From: Vulcanisaeta thermophila
GTDB taxonomy: Archaea > Thermoproteota > Thermoprotei > Thermoproteales > Thermocladiaceae
Length of the DNA: 64,000 nucleotides
NCBI RefSeq assembly: GCF_001748385.1
Contig: NZ_BCLI01000005.1
Coordinates: 1-64,000, forward strand
Reading direction: 5' to 3'
A program made the translations under genes and the position numbers. Below the pieces are notes generated by a model. The model was not told the origin of the DNA, did not search any database, and saw nothing but the letters and a program-made list of their open reading frames with translations. Positions 148-16,637 of the stretch are shown piece by piece (position 1 is the stretch's first letter; the number at the start of each line of letters is the position of its first letter).

Positions 148-225
148 CTATACCACCGGGTAATGCCACGGGTGCCTTTAAGTTAAGGGTTATTTCCCAT
201 TAAATGTGAAATTTAAAATAAGTGA

Positions 226-3599: not shown

Positions 3600-3650
3600 G
3601 TGATTTTATGGTGTTTTTAAGATAAGAATTATTTCACGTGCCTCGTAAAG

Positions 3651-5316: not shown

Positions 5317-5865
5317 TTATTTCACATTTGCCGTGGAATTACCACCCTGGGAATACTTCATAAGTAATAATCCGATTAATTGGTTGAAGTACGCATCATA
5401 GTTGAAATCAAGATCCTCGAGCAACCCCTCCACAAAGCCCTCATTAAATAATTCCCTGCGCGTCGCGGTCTTCACCCCAAGTACTACGTACATCACGTTC
5501 CTGGGCTCATCAATCCTCACGGGGAATAGGAAGGGTATTACCGAACCGCTCATGCTTTGGTAGCTTAATTCGGTTGTTATGTCCTCAAGCCTATTAAAGT
5601 CCTCCTTTATACGGGGCATGGCGTCCATGGGCACGGCATCGATTAGGTTGAGATCCAGCACAGCCAGCGACACGTAATCCCCCTCAACGGCCGCGTTAAA
5701 TAGGGCAGGCGGTAAGCCCTGCCTATATAGTATTGCATTGACCTCGGAGGTTGAGTTCAGTATGGCATTTACCAAATCACCCACACTGTAGAACTCCAGG
5801 AAACCAGCACTCCGGGCCCTATTTAACACCTCAGCGGCCTCGCTAGGTCCAACATCACCTGCCAC
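5317..5865 (-). CDS. Uncharacterised 182-residue protein heading the SQR-dsrAB group
   Basis: I do not recognise this protein. It is acidic and soluble, has no cysteine, no signal peptide and no membrane segment, and looks mixed alpha/beta ('RNVMYVVLGVKTATRRELF' is a likely strand-turn-helix). The start is GTG at 5865, preceded by AGGTAATC as a weak ribosome-binding site. The repeated TAAATAAATAAG at about 5898-5909 could be its promoter. It is the first gene of the minus-strand group, 26 bp ahead of the SQR-like gene and divergent from dsrM, so it may be co-expressed with dsrAB. The link to sulfur metabolism is by context only. Confidence 0.7.
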   Translation of the reverse strand: MAGDVGPSEAAEVLNRARSAGFLEFYSVGDLVNAILNSTSEVNAILYRQGLPPALFNAAVEGDYVSLAVLDLNLIDAVPMDAMPRIKEDFNRLEDITTELSYQSMSGSVIPFLFPVRIDEPRNVMYVVLGVKTATRRELFNEGFVEGLLEDLDFNYDAYFNQLIGLLLMKYSQGGNSTANVK

Positions 5866-5936
5866 ACTGATTACCTTAGTGCTTTACCCACACCCCTTAT
5901 TTATTTATTTACTTACACGGACCATGTGCAACCACA

Positions 5937-8183: not shown

Positions 8184-8277
8184 ATTCAGTTAAATAACTA
8201 TAAGCATTTAAATTACTAAATTGTTTGTTTAACTAATGACGTAAGTAATGCAGAATTTGCACTTAATAATAGAGTAT

Positions 8278-8293
8278 ATATTCAACTGAATAT
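8278..8293. promoter_or_regulatory. Perfect inverted repeat ATATTC-AACT-GAATAT before the winged-helix gene
   Basis: A 6-bp perfect inverted repeat with a 4-nt spacer lies 11 nt before the GTG start of the regulator. The same hexamer recurs in the control region of the aprM-like/aprBA genes at 9133, 9158 and 9192. The placement is that of an autoregulatory operator. The local AT content is high, so chance occurrence of one copy is possible; the recurrence on both sides of the regulator is what carries weight. Confidence 0.45.
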
Positions 8294-8304
8294 AATGCAT
8301 AGAT

Positions 8305-9081
8305 GTGATCGGGGGTACATCCTTAACTGAGGAAATACCTGAGACATTAAGGAATGAGATTAAACACATTATCAACGTGGACTTTGATAAGGCCATGAAC
8401 GACATACTAGCATACATAATACTGCATGAACCCGTATCACTGTACAAAATAACCAGGGACACCCCATACGGAATATCCTCCGTTTATAAGAAGGCCAAGC
8501 GCATGATAAATGATGGGTTAATCAAGTCCTCACTAAATCATAATATCAGTGATAAGAGGTGCAGGAACCTCTATGAGGCAACGGTTAAGGGCATCCTAAC
8601 GTGCATGGCATATAAATGCCTAGACGATGAAGTACTACTTAATAAACTGAGGATTAAGTGGCAATTAAAGACATTCTGCAGCCAAAGAATAGTATCAATA
8701 CTAAAGCTACTGCCCCAAATCATTAAGATCTCAAATGATTCAGAGGTTATTGAAAACCCAAGGGCACTAATGGTACTCATACTAACATTTGCAAGCGATC
8801 ATGCACACACTAAGAACCTAGAGATGAACCAAGTGATTAGGGATGCCTATGCGGCGGCCCTTTATTATATAATCAATAGGTTGATACTTGATAAATCATT
8901 AAACGATGAGGTAATAATTGGTCACAAGGACTTCCTCATTGGTATGGACAGTAATAGGGGAAGGGTAATCATATACTCATGCAAATTATGCAATAAGAAC
9001 TGCTTCCTAATTGATGGTAATAATGGCTGTAACATACTCCGAGAAGCAAGGAGAAAGATTACCGAAATACTAATGCTATGA
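8305..9081 (+). CDS. Winged-helix transcription factor with cysteine-rich C-terminus
   Basis: The 258-residue protein opens with a winged-helix domain at about residues 25-80 ('ILAYIILHEPVSLYKITRDT', then 'YGISSVYKKAKRMINDGLI' as recognition helix). Its C-terminus holds 'CKLCNKNC' followed 11 residues later by a fourth cysteine in 'GC'. Further cysteines sit at 'RCRN', 'LTCMAYKC' and 'FCSQ'. The C-x2-C-x3-C-x11-C arrangement could bind zinc or an Fe-S cluster and make the protein a redox or sulfur sensor; that is inference. The start is GTG, since the upstream ATG is closed by TGA. It is more AT-rich than its neighbours. Lying between dsrMK and aprMBA, it is the obvious candidate regulator of this locus. 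Confidence 0.8.
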   Translation: MIGGTSLTEEIPETLRNEIKHIINVDFDKAMNDILAYIILHEPVSLYKITRDTPYGISSVYKKAKRMINDGLIKSSLNHNISDKRCRNLYEATVKGILTCMAYKCLDDEVLLNKLRIKWQLKTFCSQRIVSILKLLPQIIKISNDSEVIENPRALMVLILTFASDHAHTKNLEMNQVIRDAYAAALYYIINRLILDKSLNDEVIIGHKDFLIGMDSNRGRVIIYSCKLCNKNCFLIDGNNGCNILREARRKITEILML

Positions 9082-9131
9082 TATTTAACTATGATGACAA
9101 TTCCCATATTAACCCTTCATCATATTTTGCA

Positions 9132-9197
9132 AATATTCATTCTATATATAATGTAGAATATTCATATCTATGCATCTAAATATAACTACTCATATTC
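9132..9197. promoter_or_regulatory. Repeated AATATTCAT sites upstream of the aprM-like/aprBA operon
   Basis: AATATTCAT occurs at 9132-9140 and again at 9157-9165, exactly 25 bp apart. The second copy is part of the palindrome GAATATTC (9156-9163). A further ATATTC is at 9192-9197. The core is the same as in the inverted repeat before the neighbouring regulator gene. The sites lie roughly 65-130 bp before the aprM-like start and upstream of its TATA-like box, a position suited to activation or looping. Confidence 0.45.
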
Positions 9198-9235
9198 CAT
9201 GGATATAAGCTAACCCATGTGAAATAAAGGATTAC

Positions 9236-9261: not shown

Positions 9262-10107
9262 ATGACATTCCAACTAAGCCTACCTATACCGCACCCATGG
9301 ATAATTTATGGTGCGGTGGTCCTAGTTATTGAGATGGTAATAGGCTTCGCAGTACAGTTTAAGCGCGGCGTTTTGTCCCTCCATTACCTAAGCACCGTAT
9401 TGCCTATCAAAGGCCCCACTGGTAATTGGGGTTCTGGGGCTGCCTTCATCGTGGGGCTGCTCACAGCCGTTGCGTATCCATTCTACGGGGCACCCATGAC
9501 CTCATGCCACACCCAGTCAGATTACTTAAGAAAGCCCAGGCTTAAGGCCGTGGCGCATGCACTTGTTTGGTGGGGTTTCGTATTCGCGGCTATATCCACC
9601 GTGTTGGGTTTCATATTTGATGAGTGGGTTAACGAGACCACCTTCATACCCGGCGGTACACTGGGCCCTATGGGCCCATATGCCGTAATAGGAACCGGCA
9701 CCCTAGGTGGCATTTTAATAATAATAGGTTTTGCATTAATGATGGCTGCCAGGTGGCAGGGTACAAGGCCCATTGGTGAGTCCGCCATGACCGATTTCTT
9801 CCTATGGACAGCCTTCTTCACCTCACTCAGCGGCTTCGCATTAATGGGTGTCGAATTAACGGTACCCAACAACTTCTACGCAGTATCAACGGCATTTACG
9901 GTACACATGTTCATAGTCACCATGATGTTCGCCACGATGCCCTGGTCCAAATTCGGCCATGCAATACTAACGCCGTTATGGGTACTCTACGACAAGTACA
10001 AAACACTCAAAGGCCCGCAGCCCAGGCTGCTCGGTCCCTGGAGCGGTGAGTTAGCTGAGAAAGCCCTTGAGTCGCACGTACCAAGTCATCCAAAGAGGGT
10101 CCACTGA
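9262..10107 (+). CDS. aprM: AprM/QmoC-like membrane subunit, putative quinone link for AprBA
   Basis: This 281-residue protein has about five to six membrane segments ('WIIYGAVVLVIEMVIGFAVQ', 'AHALVWWGFVFAAISTVLGF', 'YAVIGTGTLGGILIIIGFAL', 'FFLWTAFFTSLSGFALMGVE', 'TVHMFIVTMMFATMPWSKFG'). Histidines at 'VAHALVWW', 'FTVHMF' and 'FGHAIL' could ligate heme b. Its overall plan resembles the NarI-like membrane part of QmoC and the AprM anchor known next to aprBA in some sulfur oxidisers. Directly preceding aprB in the order M-B-A, it probably exchanges electrons between quinol and AprBA. The symbol rests on order and topology rather than on clear sequence identity. No qmoA or qmoB is in the window. 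Confidence 0.7.
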   Translation: MTFQLSLPIPHPWIIYGAVVLVIEMVIGFAVQFKRGVLSLHYLSTVLPIKGPTGNWGSGAAFIVGLLTAVAYPFYGAPMTSCHTQSDYLRKPRLKAVAHALVWWGFVFAAISTVLGFIFDEWVNETTFIPGGTLGPMGPYAVIGTGTLGGILIIIGFALMMAARWQGTRPIGESAMTDFFLWTAFFTSLSGFALMGVELTVPNNFYAVSTAFTVHMFIVTMMFATMPWSKFGHAILTPLWVLYDKYKTLKGPQPRLLGPWSGELAEKALESHVPSHPKRVH

Positions 10108-12515: not shown

Positions 12516-12632
12516 TGCTAAATTAATGTTAAAAATTTAAAAGAATATCCTTAAAAACTCTTATAAAAACATATAACCATCCTCATCATAATTAATTATT
12601 TTATGTATTGATCAACAATATGTGGAATAAGG

Positions 12633-14489: not shown

Positions 14490-15053
14490 GTGGCACTGAA
14501 GAGGGAGTTCATTGATTTAGTAAAGGCCGAATCCGTAGGGTTGGGTGTTGATTTAGATGAATTAATTAAGGAGTTAGAGCCCTGCATTAATGAGCTAACG
14601 AGAGTTAATGTGACAATTGATGAGGCTAGGGAGCTCGTGAAAATGATCATTGGCTCATTATACAGGGATTGGAGGTACACATACATTGGTTGTAGGGATG
14701 TGGGGCAGATACTAAGTTACGTGAATACCTGCGGTGTCAATGGGATGTCAATGCGTAGGTATGACTCGATACTCTGCCCCATAATTATACCTGAGGGTAT
14801 GCTCGGTGTTACGAACATAAAGTTATTATCCACGAAGCCCGTCTCGGTATTCGTTAAGAAGCTGGGCGAACCCTTGGGTGGTGTCTATGTGAGTGAGGGT
14901 ATGTCCCTATTTAGTTACTTCGATGTGATGGAGTTTTCAGTGCCCATGAGGCTGAGGCCTGGTTTTTACGTTGTTGAGTTGTATAATTGTTGTAATGTTG
15001 ATGTCAATGTTACGTTTCACGTAACATCCTGCGTAATCAGGGCTAGGAAATAA
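14490..15053 (+). CDS. Uncharacterised 187-residue protein
   Basis: I do not recognise this protein. The N-terminal 60 residues are helical ('EFIDLVKAESVGLGVDLDEL', 'IDEARELVKMIIGSLYRDWR'). The rest looks like a beta-sandwich with seven cysteines, including 'YNCCNVDVNVTFHVTSC'. There is no signal peptide, so these cysteines are cytoplasmic and might bind metal or form disulfides, as is common in hot crenarchaea. The start is GTG 14490; no ATG fits. Its 3' end overlaps the convergent HTH-TPR gene by 11 bp. Being next to the sat operon is its only functional hint. Confidence 0.7.
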   Translation: MALKREFIDLVKAESVGLGVDLDELIKELEPCINELTRVNVTIDEARELVKMIIGSLYRDWRYTYIGCRDVGQILSYVNTCGVNGMSMRRYDSILCPIIIPEGMLGVTNIKLLSTKPVSVFVKKLGEPLGGVYVSEGMSLFSYFDVMEFSVPMRLRPGFYVVELYNCCNVDVNVTFHVTSCVIRARK

Positions 15054-16485
15054 CCAGCAATGCCTTAAGTACCTGGCAGTGGAGGAGCCTCATTAACGAA
15101 TCCGCGAGGTCGCCGTGGACAACACCAACGTTGCCCCTGGCCCTCCATCGAAGGATCCTTAACGCCGAGTTAACGAGGTGCGCGAGATCCGCAAGTCTCC
15201 TGTCGTTGTATTCCACGGGGATCTCATTAACCAAGCCCTGGAGAGCCCTCGCCAGTTCCAGAACGAATCTGCCTGGTTCGTTGTTCACGGGGGAGGCCAC
15301 TTCAATGGCTTCTGAGTACCTGCGGGTGCTTAGTAGTAGTATTGAGAGTAGTATCCTGACCTTATACTCATTACCCGCATCCTTAACACTGCTGAAGTAC
15401 TTAATCGAGTCCTGAAGGCTAACGCCAAGTACGGGGTTTATTAGCTCGGCATAGTCGCTGCAGTCCGTGCTCATTAATGCCCTAGACTTTATGTAATTAT
15501 GCACCGCCGAGGAGGCGAAGGCCCTATTACCCCTGGCCAGGGATTTCTCAAGTACGAACATGAAGTCCCCCGCGGCATCCCTGAAGTTGCCAGTGAGGTA
15601 ATTTAGGACCCCTCGTTTATCCCTAAGGCTTATCTGCATGTCAATACCCAACCCTGTATTGCCAAGGCACCTACCCACGAGGTCCAGGGCGTTTGCGAGT
15701 GTTGTGTTGGCCTCGTCATACCTGCCCAGGTTTATTTGGGCCGCCGCCTTGGTCTCCATCAACCTGGCAATTAAGTAGCATGTTTCCTCATCATTGGGGG
15801 ACTGGCTGAATAACCTCAGCCCCTGGTCCACGTACCTGAGGGTCTCCAGGACATAACCACTGTTCATTAGCGCCTCGGCCGTGCGTAGCATCAGGCTCGC
15901 GTACTCCCGCGGGTACCTACTCACCACCTCATCGCTTAGCTCCGCCGCTGCCTTTATGTATGGGTAGATGGTGAGTATGTTATCTATCCTACTCACCGCG
16001 TAGCTTAAGCCCTCTAGGGCTGCGTCGTAGCGACCAACCCTCATGCCCATTAGGAACGCCTTGACGCCATATCTACGTGCAAGTTCCGGTGAGTTTGCCT
16101 CAAAGCCGAACCTGGCAAGTCTTAGGCATGTGCTTAATACCTCATTGAGCACCTCCGGGTCGTTGTAATTGACGTGTTCGAGGTATGAAGACCCATACTC
16201 AGCAATGGCTACATCCCTCTCGAGGCTGCGGGGCTTGGATTTATAGTGACCATAAAGCCTCCTAAACGCCATTGTTTCGTACTCCCTTGCTACACTCCTT
16301 ACATAGTCCCTGCCCTTATCCGTTAGGGTAACCTCCCCATCCTTAATTGTTAAGTAACCTCCCTCTAACCCACGGCTAATGGCTTCATCACTAAAACCCA
16401 TCTCGTGGAGCATGGTAGTACTTACATTGCCCAGTATCTCAATGGCCTTTAGCATTATGGCCACCTCGTCGTAATTGGCATTCAT
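15043..16485 (-). CDS. Winged-helix/TPR-type protein, possible regulator
   Basis: The 480-residue protein starts with a winged-helix-like region at about 5-65 ('IMLKAIEILGNVSTTMLHEM', 'GYLTIKDGEVTLTDKGRDYV'). The rest is an all-helical solenoid with recurrent TPR-like units, for instance 'LARRYGVKAFLMGMRVGRYD', 'EALMNSGYVLETLRYVDQGL' and 'AAAQINLGRYDEANTTLANA'. Such proteins act as regulators or assembly scaffolds that bind partners through the TPR groove. No ligand can be named. It is convergent with the preceding ORF and divergent from the tetrapyrrole methyltransferase gene, 152 bp away. ATG 16485 is used as start. Confidence 0.75.
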   Translation of the reverse strand: MNANYDEVAIMLKAIEILGNVSTTMLHEMGFSDEAISRGLEGGYLTIKDGEVTLTDKGRDYVRSVAREYETMAFRRLYGHYKSKPRSLERDVAIAEYGSSYLEHVNYNDPEVLNEVLSTCLRLARFGFEANSPELARRYGVKAFLMGMRVGRYDAALEGLSYAVSRIDNILTIYPYIKAAAELSDEVVSRYPREYASLMLRTAEALMNSGYVLETLRYVDQGLRLFSQSPNDEETCYLIARLMETKAAAQINLGRYDEANTTLANALDLVGRCLGNTGLGIDMQISLRDKRGVLNYLTGNFRDAAGDFMFVLEKSLARGNRAFASSAVHNYIKSRALMSTDCSDYAELINPVLGVSLQDSIKYFSSVKDAGNEYKVRILLSILLLSTRRYSEAIEVASPVNNEPGRFVLELARALQGLVNEIPVEYNDRRLADLAHLVNSALRILRWRARGNVGVVHGDLADSLMRLLHCQVLKALLVIS

Positions 16486-16637
16486 TGTTCGTTTTCACGG
16501 TTCCACGTTAATAAGCTTTTATTGTTAAATCCCCAATCAATGGCGTTAGATGCCTTGTTTCTGGTAATCATTGGTATTCCACATGGGTTGTGTAATAACA
16601 AGTATTATTTACTATATTAATGCATACATGAACTTTA

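Follow-up and report, generated by a model that had tools for sequence, protein, structure and literature searches.

A winged-helix protein and three promoter motifs as candidate elements for the control of dissimilatory sulfur metabolism in Vulcanisaeta

The 64-kb window analysed here comes from a Vulcanisaeta genome of 2.02 Mb, in which it forms the beginning of contig 5, and it opens with a sulfate-reduction gene cluster. The gene order is dsrC (cut at the contig end), a 304-aa open reading frame (ORF), dsrB, dsrA, a DUF1641 protein gene, an SQR-like gene, a 182-aa ORF, dsrM, dsrK, the putative regulator gene REG, aprM, aprB, aprA, sat, DUF6955, a 187-aa ORF, a TPR-like gene, a tetrapyrrole methyltransferase gene and a gene for a CobB-type protein. 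DsrC, whose ATG lies at 147, was identified from its translation and Pfam, and the tetrapyrrole methyltransferase, which matches TP_methylase, is of the uroporphyrinogen-III/sirohaem type. The product of aprM (9262-10107) weakly matches the QmoC/DsrM and nitrate-reductase gamma families, so that the label "aprM-like" is fair but unproven. The features discussed below are collected in Table 1.

Table 1. Positions in the window of REG and of the sequence elements near the sulfate-reduction genes.
Feature	Position	Strand	Remarks
Motif B before dsrC	190..211	-	22.8 bits
Motif B before dsrA	3629..3650	-	20.6 bits
Motif B before SQR-like gene	5317..5338	-	exact consensus, 20.0 bits
Degenerate motif B before dsrM	5913..5934	+	11.6 bits; orthologous to strong G004/G011 dsrM sites
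Motif C, TGCA-GAATT-TGCACT	8249..8263	.	18 nt before the core of motif A
Candidate TATA box TATATATT	8275..8282	+	26-27 nt before GTG 8305; by sequence inspection
Motif A palindrome ATATTC-AACT-GAATAT (ATATTCAACTGAATAT)	8278..8293	.	overlaps or just follows TATA-like TATATATT; unique in genome
REG	8305..9081	+	258-aa putative regulator, GTG start 8305, N-terminal winged helix, C-terminal cysteines
AATATTCAT repeats of the initial annotation, 25 bp apart	9132..9165	+	copies at 9132 and 9157; arrangement not conserved
Weak B-like dyad TTCTATATATAATGTAGAATAT	9140..9161	+	8.8 bits, near null maximum, not significant alone
Degenerate motif B before aprM	9206..9227	+	7.0 bits, not significant alone
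GAATAT, aprA-sat gap	12543..12548	+	chance occurrence; p 0.28 in shuffles
Motif B before sirohaem/tetrapyrrole methyltransferase gene	16577..16598	+	exact consensus; 15.4/17.8 bits

The locus was compared with those of same-genus relatives, including Vulcanisaeta sp. JCM 14467, JCM 16159 and V. distributa JCM 11216, in which the order dsrM-dsrK-REG1-aprM-aprB-aprA-sat-DUF6955 is conserved. Since sat begins about 13 bp past aprA in these relatives, they have no separate sat promoter region. Many genes in the assemblies G005, G002 and G003 are split by apparent frameshifts (tblastn matches in abutting pieces), which suggests low-quality draft sequence. The genome studied here also carries a second dsr gene set, split over two contig ends (C1:1-5500 and C6:1-3000). 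The former holds DsrE, dsrM, dsrK and a REG paralogue that follows dsrK and has no promoter of its own; the latter holds TusA and a second dsrAB, its dsrA being 77% identical. The DsrE and TusA genes of this set are preceded by motif C.

The AlphaFold2 model of REG comprises a confident winged-helix region, with a helix-turn-helix at about residues 11-70 (block pLDDT mostly 88-97), and, after a helical central part, a C-terminus that is poorly modelled (low confidence above about residue 195). A DNA-binding domain is indicated by the winged-helix pLDDT (mostly >90), by Foldseek matches to winged-helix regulators and by weak Pfam helix-turn-helix matches. The latter were to F-93_WHD, at E 8e-4, and to PadR, at E 0.02. 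Neither reached its gathering threshold: REG scored 19.9 bits where F-93 winged-helix (PF22194) requires 28, and 15.4 bits where PadR (PF03551) requires 27. Its match is confined to the N-terminal helix-turn-helix, and its additional helical middle and cysteine-bearing C-terminus lie outside those models. The best Foldseek matches were MarR-type regulators, in which a winged helix is likewise joined to helices; with a best E of 0.017, a TM (query) of about 0.28 and a C-terminal part that is poorly modelled, REG cannot be assigned to that type. REG had no match in NCBIfam, and a sequence search of solved structures returned nothing relevant. In the REG alignment, cysteines are invariant at residues 100, 105, 226, 229 and 233 and near-invariant at 242, and none occurs before residue 86. 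The C-terminal pattern, C226-x2-C229-x3-C233 (CxLCxxxC...C), may serve in sulfur or redox sensing.

Relatives of REG were found by an alignment-based genome scan; a scan with the single protein found none. Most relatives within the genus have REG twice, the additional gene, REG2, being flanked by the 187-aa ORF on one side and the sirohaem methyltransferase gene on the other; REG1 and REG2 proteins share only about 40% identity. REG2 is absent from the genome studied here, which has instead the paralogue on contig 1, 30% identical to REG, behind the second dsrM-dsrK pair. The TPR-like gene (15043-16485, - strand), which has no NCBIfam name, fills the position of REG2, and a 28%-identical homologue of it follows the contig 1 paralogue (L043:4191-5012). 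In a tree with several poorly supported deep nodes REG branches outside both the REG1 and REG2 clades, as would be expected if it were near the single-copy state. Distant homologues in other genera of Thermoproteales adjoin dsrB, dsrA, dsrM, sat-DUF6955, cobB, dsrC or TusA. The presence of REG and dsrA agrees in 50 of 61 genomes (26 with both, 24 with neither) and disagrees in 11, eight having REG only and three dsrA only (Fisher p 4e-7, uncorrected for phylogeny). REG thus belongs to a Thermoproteales family whose genes lie next to dsr, apr, sat or sirohaem genes. A 33%-identical homologue (L187:8001-8777) lies on a 122-kb contig of a metagenome-assembled genome titled Thaumarchaeota archaeon, where none of the queried sulfur genes is nearby; misbinning or transfer may account for it.

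An initial annotation of this DNA had drawn attention to the inverted repeat ATATTC-AACT-GAATAT (motif A) 11 nt before the start codon of REG, and the repeat is indeed there. It occurs once in the 2.02-Mb genome, and shuffling the 121-bp region upstream of REG 5000 times, with dinucleotide composition preserved, never produced the full palindrome (p 0.0002). Alignment of REG promoters revealed a common arrangement in which a dyad C, TGCAN5TGCA(CT), is followed by 17-18 nt containing a TATA box and then by dyad A, ATTCANNTGAAT. The TATA-like TATATATT of REG aligns with TTTTATA/TTAATA of the REG1 relatives and is the candidate TATA box of REG. Dyad A is complete at REG itself, at the basal REG1 of G006 (R1b) and in 7/7 REG2 promoters, with a centre that varies (CAACTG, CAGTTG, CAGCTG or CATCTG). 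The other (crown) REG1 promoters keep C and only the right arm of A, the left arm being just the TATA box, and a few promoters have a C with degenerate sequence or altered spacing. A conserved operator-like dyad is accordingly present in REG's own promoter, and on this comparison the palindrome is a genuine, evolutionarily conserved candidate control site. At REG homologues of other genera the A module was not found; no exact palindrome is common to them, and no meaningful pattern was seen outside the genus.

Both dyads recur at sulfur-relay genes. The C-A module precedes a DsrE-TusA-SQR operon in the relatives G004, G008 and G011, with A also present there in G002 and G003, and A together with a further motif, B, precedes a DsrE-TusA-Hdr operon in G011, G005, G002 and G001. 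Genome-wide counts of the motifs were obtained by exact or one-mismatch pattern searches and, because genomes of one genus share ancestry, are not independent of one another. Complete genomes contain three to six A matches per strand. Some A matches are intragenic. In the genome studied here REG, one TusA gene and three DsrE-family genes each have a C site 44-59 nt upstream, and these genes account for five of the 13 genomic C matches where about 0.003 would be expected, assuming a dozen such genes. Dyads of the A or C type also occur in several species in the divergent promoter of an Nre-family DNA-repair gene and a DUF981 membrane protein gene, neither of them an obvious sulfur gene (C1:757597-757613, L077, in this genome; also L253, L256, L260 and L292). 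In two species an A-like palindrome is kept between ABC-transporter-like and malic-enzyme-like genes (G004:C1:1754856, L082; G006:C48:14436, L088).

The reductase operons carry a different dyad. Motif B has the consensus TTnCAC-N6-YGTGnAATAA, which may also be written TTTCACA-N5-TGTGAAATAA, and lies 23-42 nt before aprM, dsrM, dsrA, dsrC, SQR-like, DsrE-like and sirohaem methyltransferase genes. Sites for Rex, of the TTGTGA...TCACAA type, have their halves in the opposite order. Searches with the B consensus gave about 4-10 distinct sites per complete genome, of which those within the 20-kb dsr/apr cluster numbered 7/10 in G011, 6/8 in G004 and 4/5 in G008 (binomial p from 3e-13 to 3e-8). A weight matrix trained on the relatives' sites only was then used to scan the whole window, and its top ranks fell before dsrC, dsrA, the SQR-like gene, the sirohaem methyltransferase gene and dsrM; in simulated windows the maximum score averaged 8.3 bits and reached 15.0 at the highest. 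As B was first glimpsed in a comparison of the window with its relatives, matrix and test are not wholly independent. The sirohaem methyltransferase site can also be read on the - strand, at 16574. At aprM the right half of the site, ATGTGAAATAA, is intact, in register with the conserved TTTCACAATCTATGTGAAATAA of the relatives, and the left half is lost. A strong match of 22.0 bits lies far from sulfur genes (C4:122821-122842; L264:2821-2842), 32 nt before a gene for an 85-aa protein weakly matching the winged-helix domain DUF6293_C; it is possibly a chance occurrence, or possibly marks a B-binding protein that regulates itself.

In a second genus of the family B was found before sirohaem, dsrA/dsrB, dsrM-like and DsrE genes. 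Other-genus genomes are here called Thermoproteus and Pyrobaculum on our own assumption, as leads only. Two high-scoring matches beside sulfur genes in the Pyrobaculum-type genomes suggest that B perhaps persists there. Motif B, a putative mark of sulfate-reduction operons, is by these comparisons even better conserved than the REG palindrome. A location between TATA box and start in all promoters is disfavoured by the distances to the start codon, and B more probably sits at the BRE/TATA region, overlapping it or immediately ahead of it, although the relatives' aprM also has a TATA-like CATATAAAC in front of B.

The conservation, placement and gene specificity of these motifs, together with the fold and the linkage of REG, lead us to a reading that we hold to be probable, though well short of assured: REG would regulate dissimilatory sulfur metabolism, controlling itself through a C-A promoter that it shares with the sulfur relay, and the reductases would form a parallel B regulon. 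As a DNA-binding regulator dedicated to this metabolism, REG would govern its own gene through the compound promoter of dyad C, TATA box and dyad A. With a TATA-like sequence 26-27 nt before the GTG the transcript is probably leaderless, so that A, which overlaps the TATA box and extends between it and the expected start, would occupy DNA needed by TBP/TFB and polymerase. Any protein bound there would block them, and negative feedback through A is the sign of regulation that we infer. Lying about 14 nt above the TATA box, dyad C is suitably placed either for activation or for blocking TFB. The same C-A module would drive the DsrE-TusA-SQR sulfur-relay operon in relatives, C alone being present before DsrE and TusA genes in this genome, and in parallel B, next to BRE/TATA, would control dsrC, dsrAB, dsrMK, aprMBA, SQR and the sirohaem methyltransferase gene. 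Most probably REG regulates itself through the palindrome module. The simplest picture is that REG, dedicated to sulfur, controls itself by binding A and/or C, and that B is read by the REG family or a partner.

One alternative, which we rate as possible but tentative, is that REG also or mainly binds B, so that one dedicated regulator family would act on the reductase operons and also on itself by way of its own promoter. Vulcanisaeta REG genes are always found among B-marked operons, the DsrE-TusA-Hdr promoters hold A and B together, and TGAA is common to the halves of both; the dyad spacings nevertheless differ (TTCA-2-TGAA in A, TTCA-9-TGAA in B), and Vulcanisaeta REG promoters contain no B. 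In four genomes of the second genus, the region between the divergent REG and dsrC genes contains a B-like dyad next to the TATA box, which suggests a link between REG and B; the dyad is strong in one of them (13.4 bits, G021) but weak in the other three (best scores 1.6-7.9), and the Thermoproteus genomes with REG have no B site at one mismatch.

We think it unlikely that a regulator other than REG occupies A and C, or that the two are features of the core promoter, with REG acting elsewhere. REG is tied to these sites only by gene position and the logic of autoregulation, and C in this genome stands mostly at DsrE/TusA genes distant from REG, as such an explanation would allow. Against it, almost every REG promoter, in diverged paralogues too, retains A and C at fixed spacing, and these dyads are no part of ordinary TATA promoters, as the small number of A matches in complete genomes attests.

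The initial annotation had gone further, taking GAATAT/ATATTC as a REG operator common to the regulator, aprMBA and sat, and this model we now consider very improbable. It had counted the core three times before aprM. The strings are present, and four hexamer hits in the 180-bp apr upstream region against 0.63 expected in shuffles (p 0.004) represent a local excess; TATTCA repeats also occur in some relatives ahead of the aprM TATA region. The second AATATTCAT copy, however, lies within the palindrome GAATATTC (9156-9163), which leaves 9133, 9156/9158 and 9192 as the real sites, and the GAATAT at 9156 is itself included in the weak B-like dyad of Table 1. Neither the copies nor their 25-bp spacing are conserved in the relatives, G005 and G006b having none, and TTTCACAATCTATGTGAAATAA is conserved upstream of aprM in place of any GAATAT arrangement. 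The GAATAT reported near sat exists, at chance level. Conservation therefore rejects the hexamer as a common regulon motif: the aprMBA and dsr operons have their own shared dyad, B, and it is with DsrE-TusA operons that the REG-type motif is shared in relatives. What endures is the proposal of an autoregulated local regulator, in that a winged-helix family stands beside the dsr/apr/sat/sirohaem genes with a palindrome conserved at the TATA box of its own promoter. Chance palindromes in AT-rich DNA (the region is 22% GC) are a reading that stands for 12543 but is already refuted for 8278-8293, where a unique palindrome, absent from shuffles and conserved across paralogues and species, makes it negligible.

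Among known systems the closest parallel to the favoured reading is SurR of Thermococcales, a sulfur-responsive, autoregulated winged-helix regulator whose sulfur-energy-metabolism regulon has a defining promoter motif (PMC12162507). REG resembles it as an archaeal winged helix with a cysteine motif, and autoregulation and a motif-defined sulfur regulon are proposed for REG as well. SurR recognises GTTn3AAC(n5GTT), has its CxxC in the N-terminal DNA-binding domain and possesses a second, C-terminal winged helix (PMC12162507), whereas REG has a C-terminal CxLCxxxC...C and no CxxC in its N-terminal winged helix, is associated with other motifs and has candidate targets in sulfate/sulfite reduction; SurR was not among its matches in the search of solved structures. 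In Desulfovibrio vulgaris the repressor Rex acts at sat, a sulfate-reduction promoter (PMC7531388). The likeness lies in a regulator at such a promoter, Rex itself being an NADH/NAD-sensing bacterial repressor, a family absent from the Pfam and NCBIfam output for REG.

How dissimilatory sulfate reduction is switched on and off in archaea appears to be undescribed, and our literature search, whose coverage took in few subscription papers, returned no regulator of this process in Thermoproteales. What the present analysis adds is a family of candidate regulators, together with three short motifs whose positions are precise and whose target genes are defined; two of these motifs (B and C) were not in the initial annotation. 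The question thereby becomes directly testable in cultivated Vulcanisaeta. Taken together, the A/C and B sites outline a first candidate code by which these hot-spring archaea may regulate sulfate reduction. That REG represents a new archaeal family, whose C-terminal cysteines sense sulfide, polysulfide or redox state and which directly controls the whole dissimilatory sulfate-reduction programme of Thermoproteales, using C-A for itself and the sulfur relay genes and B for the reductases, strikes us as rather unlikely; were it true, this would be the first described archaeal sulfate-reduction regulon.
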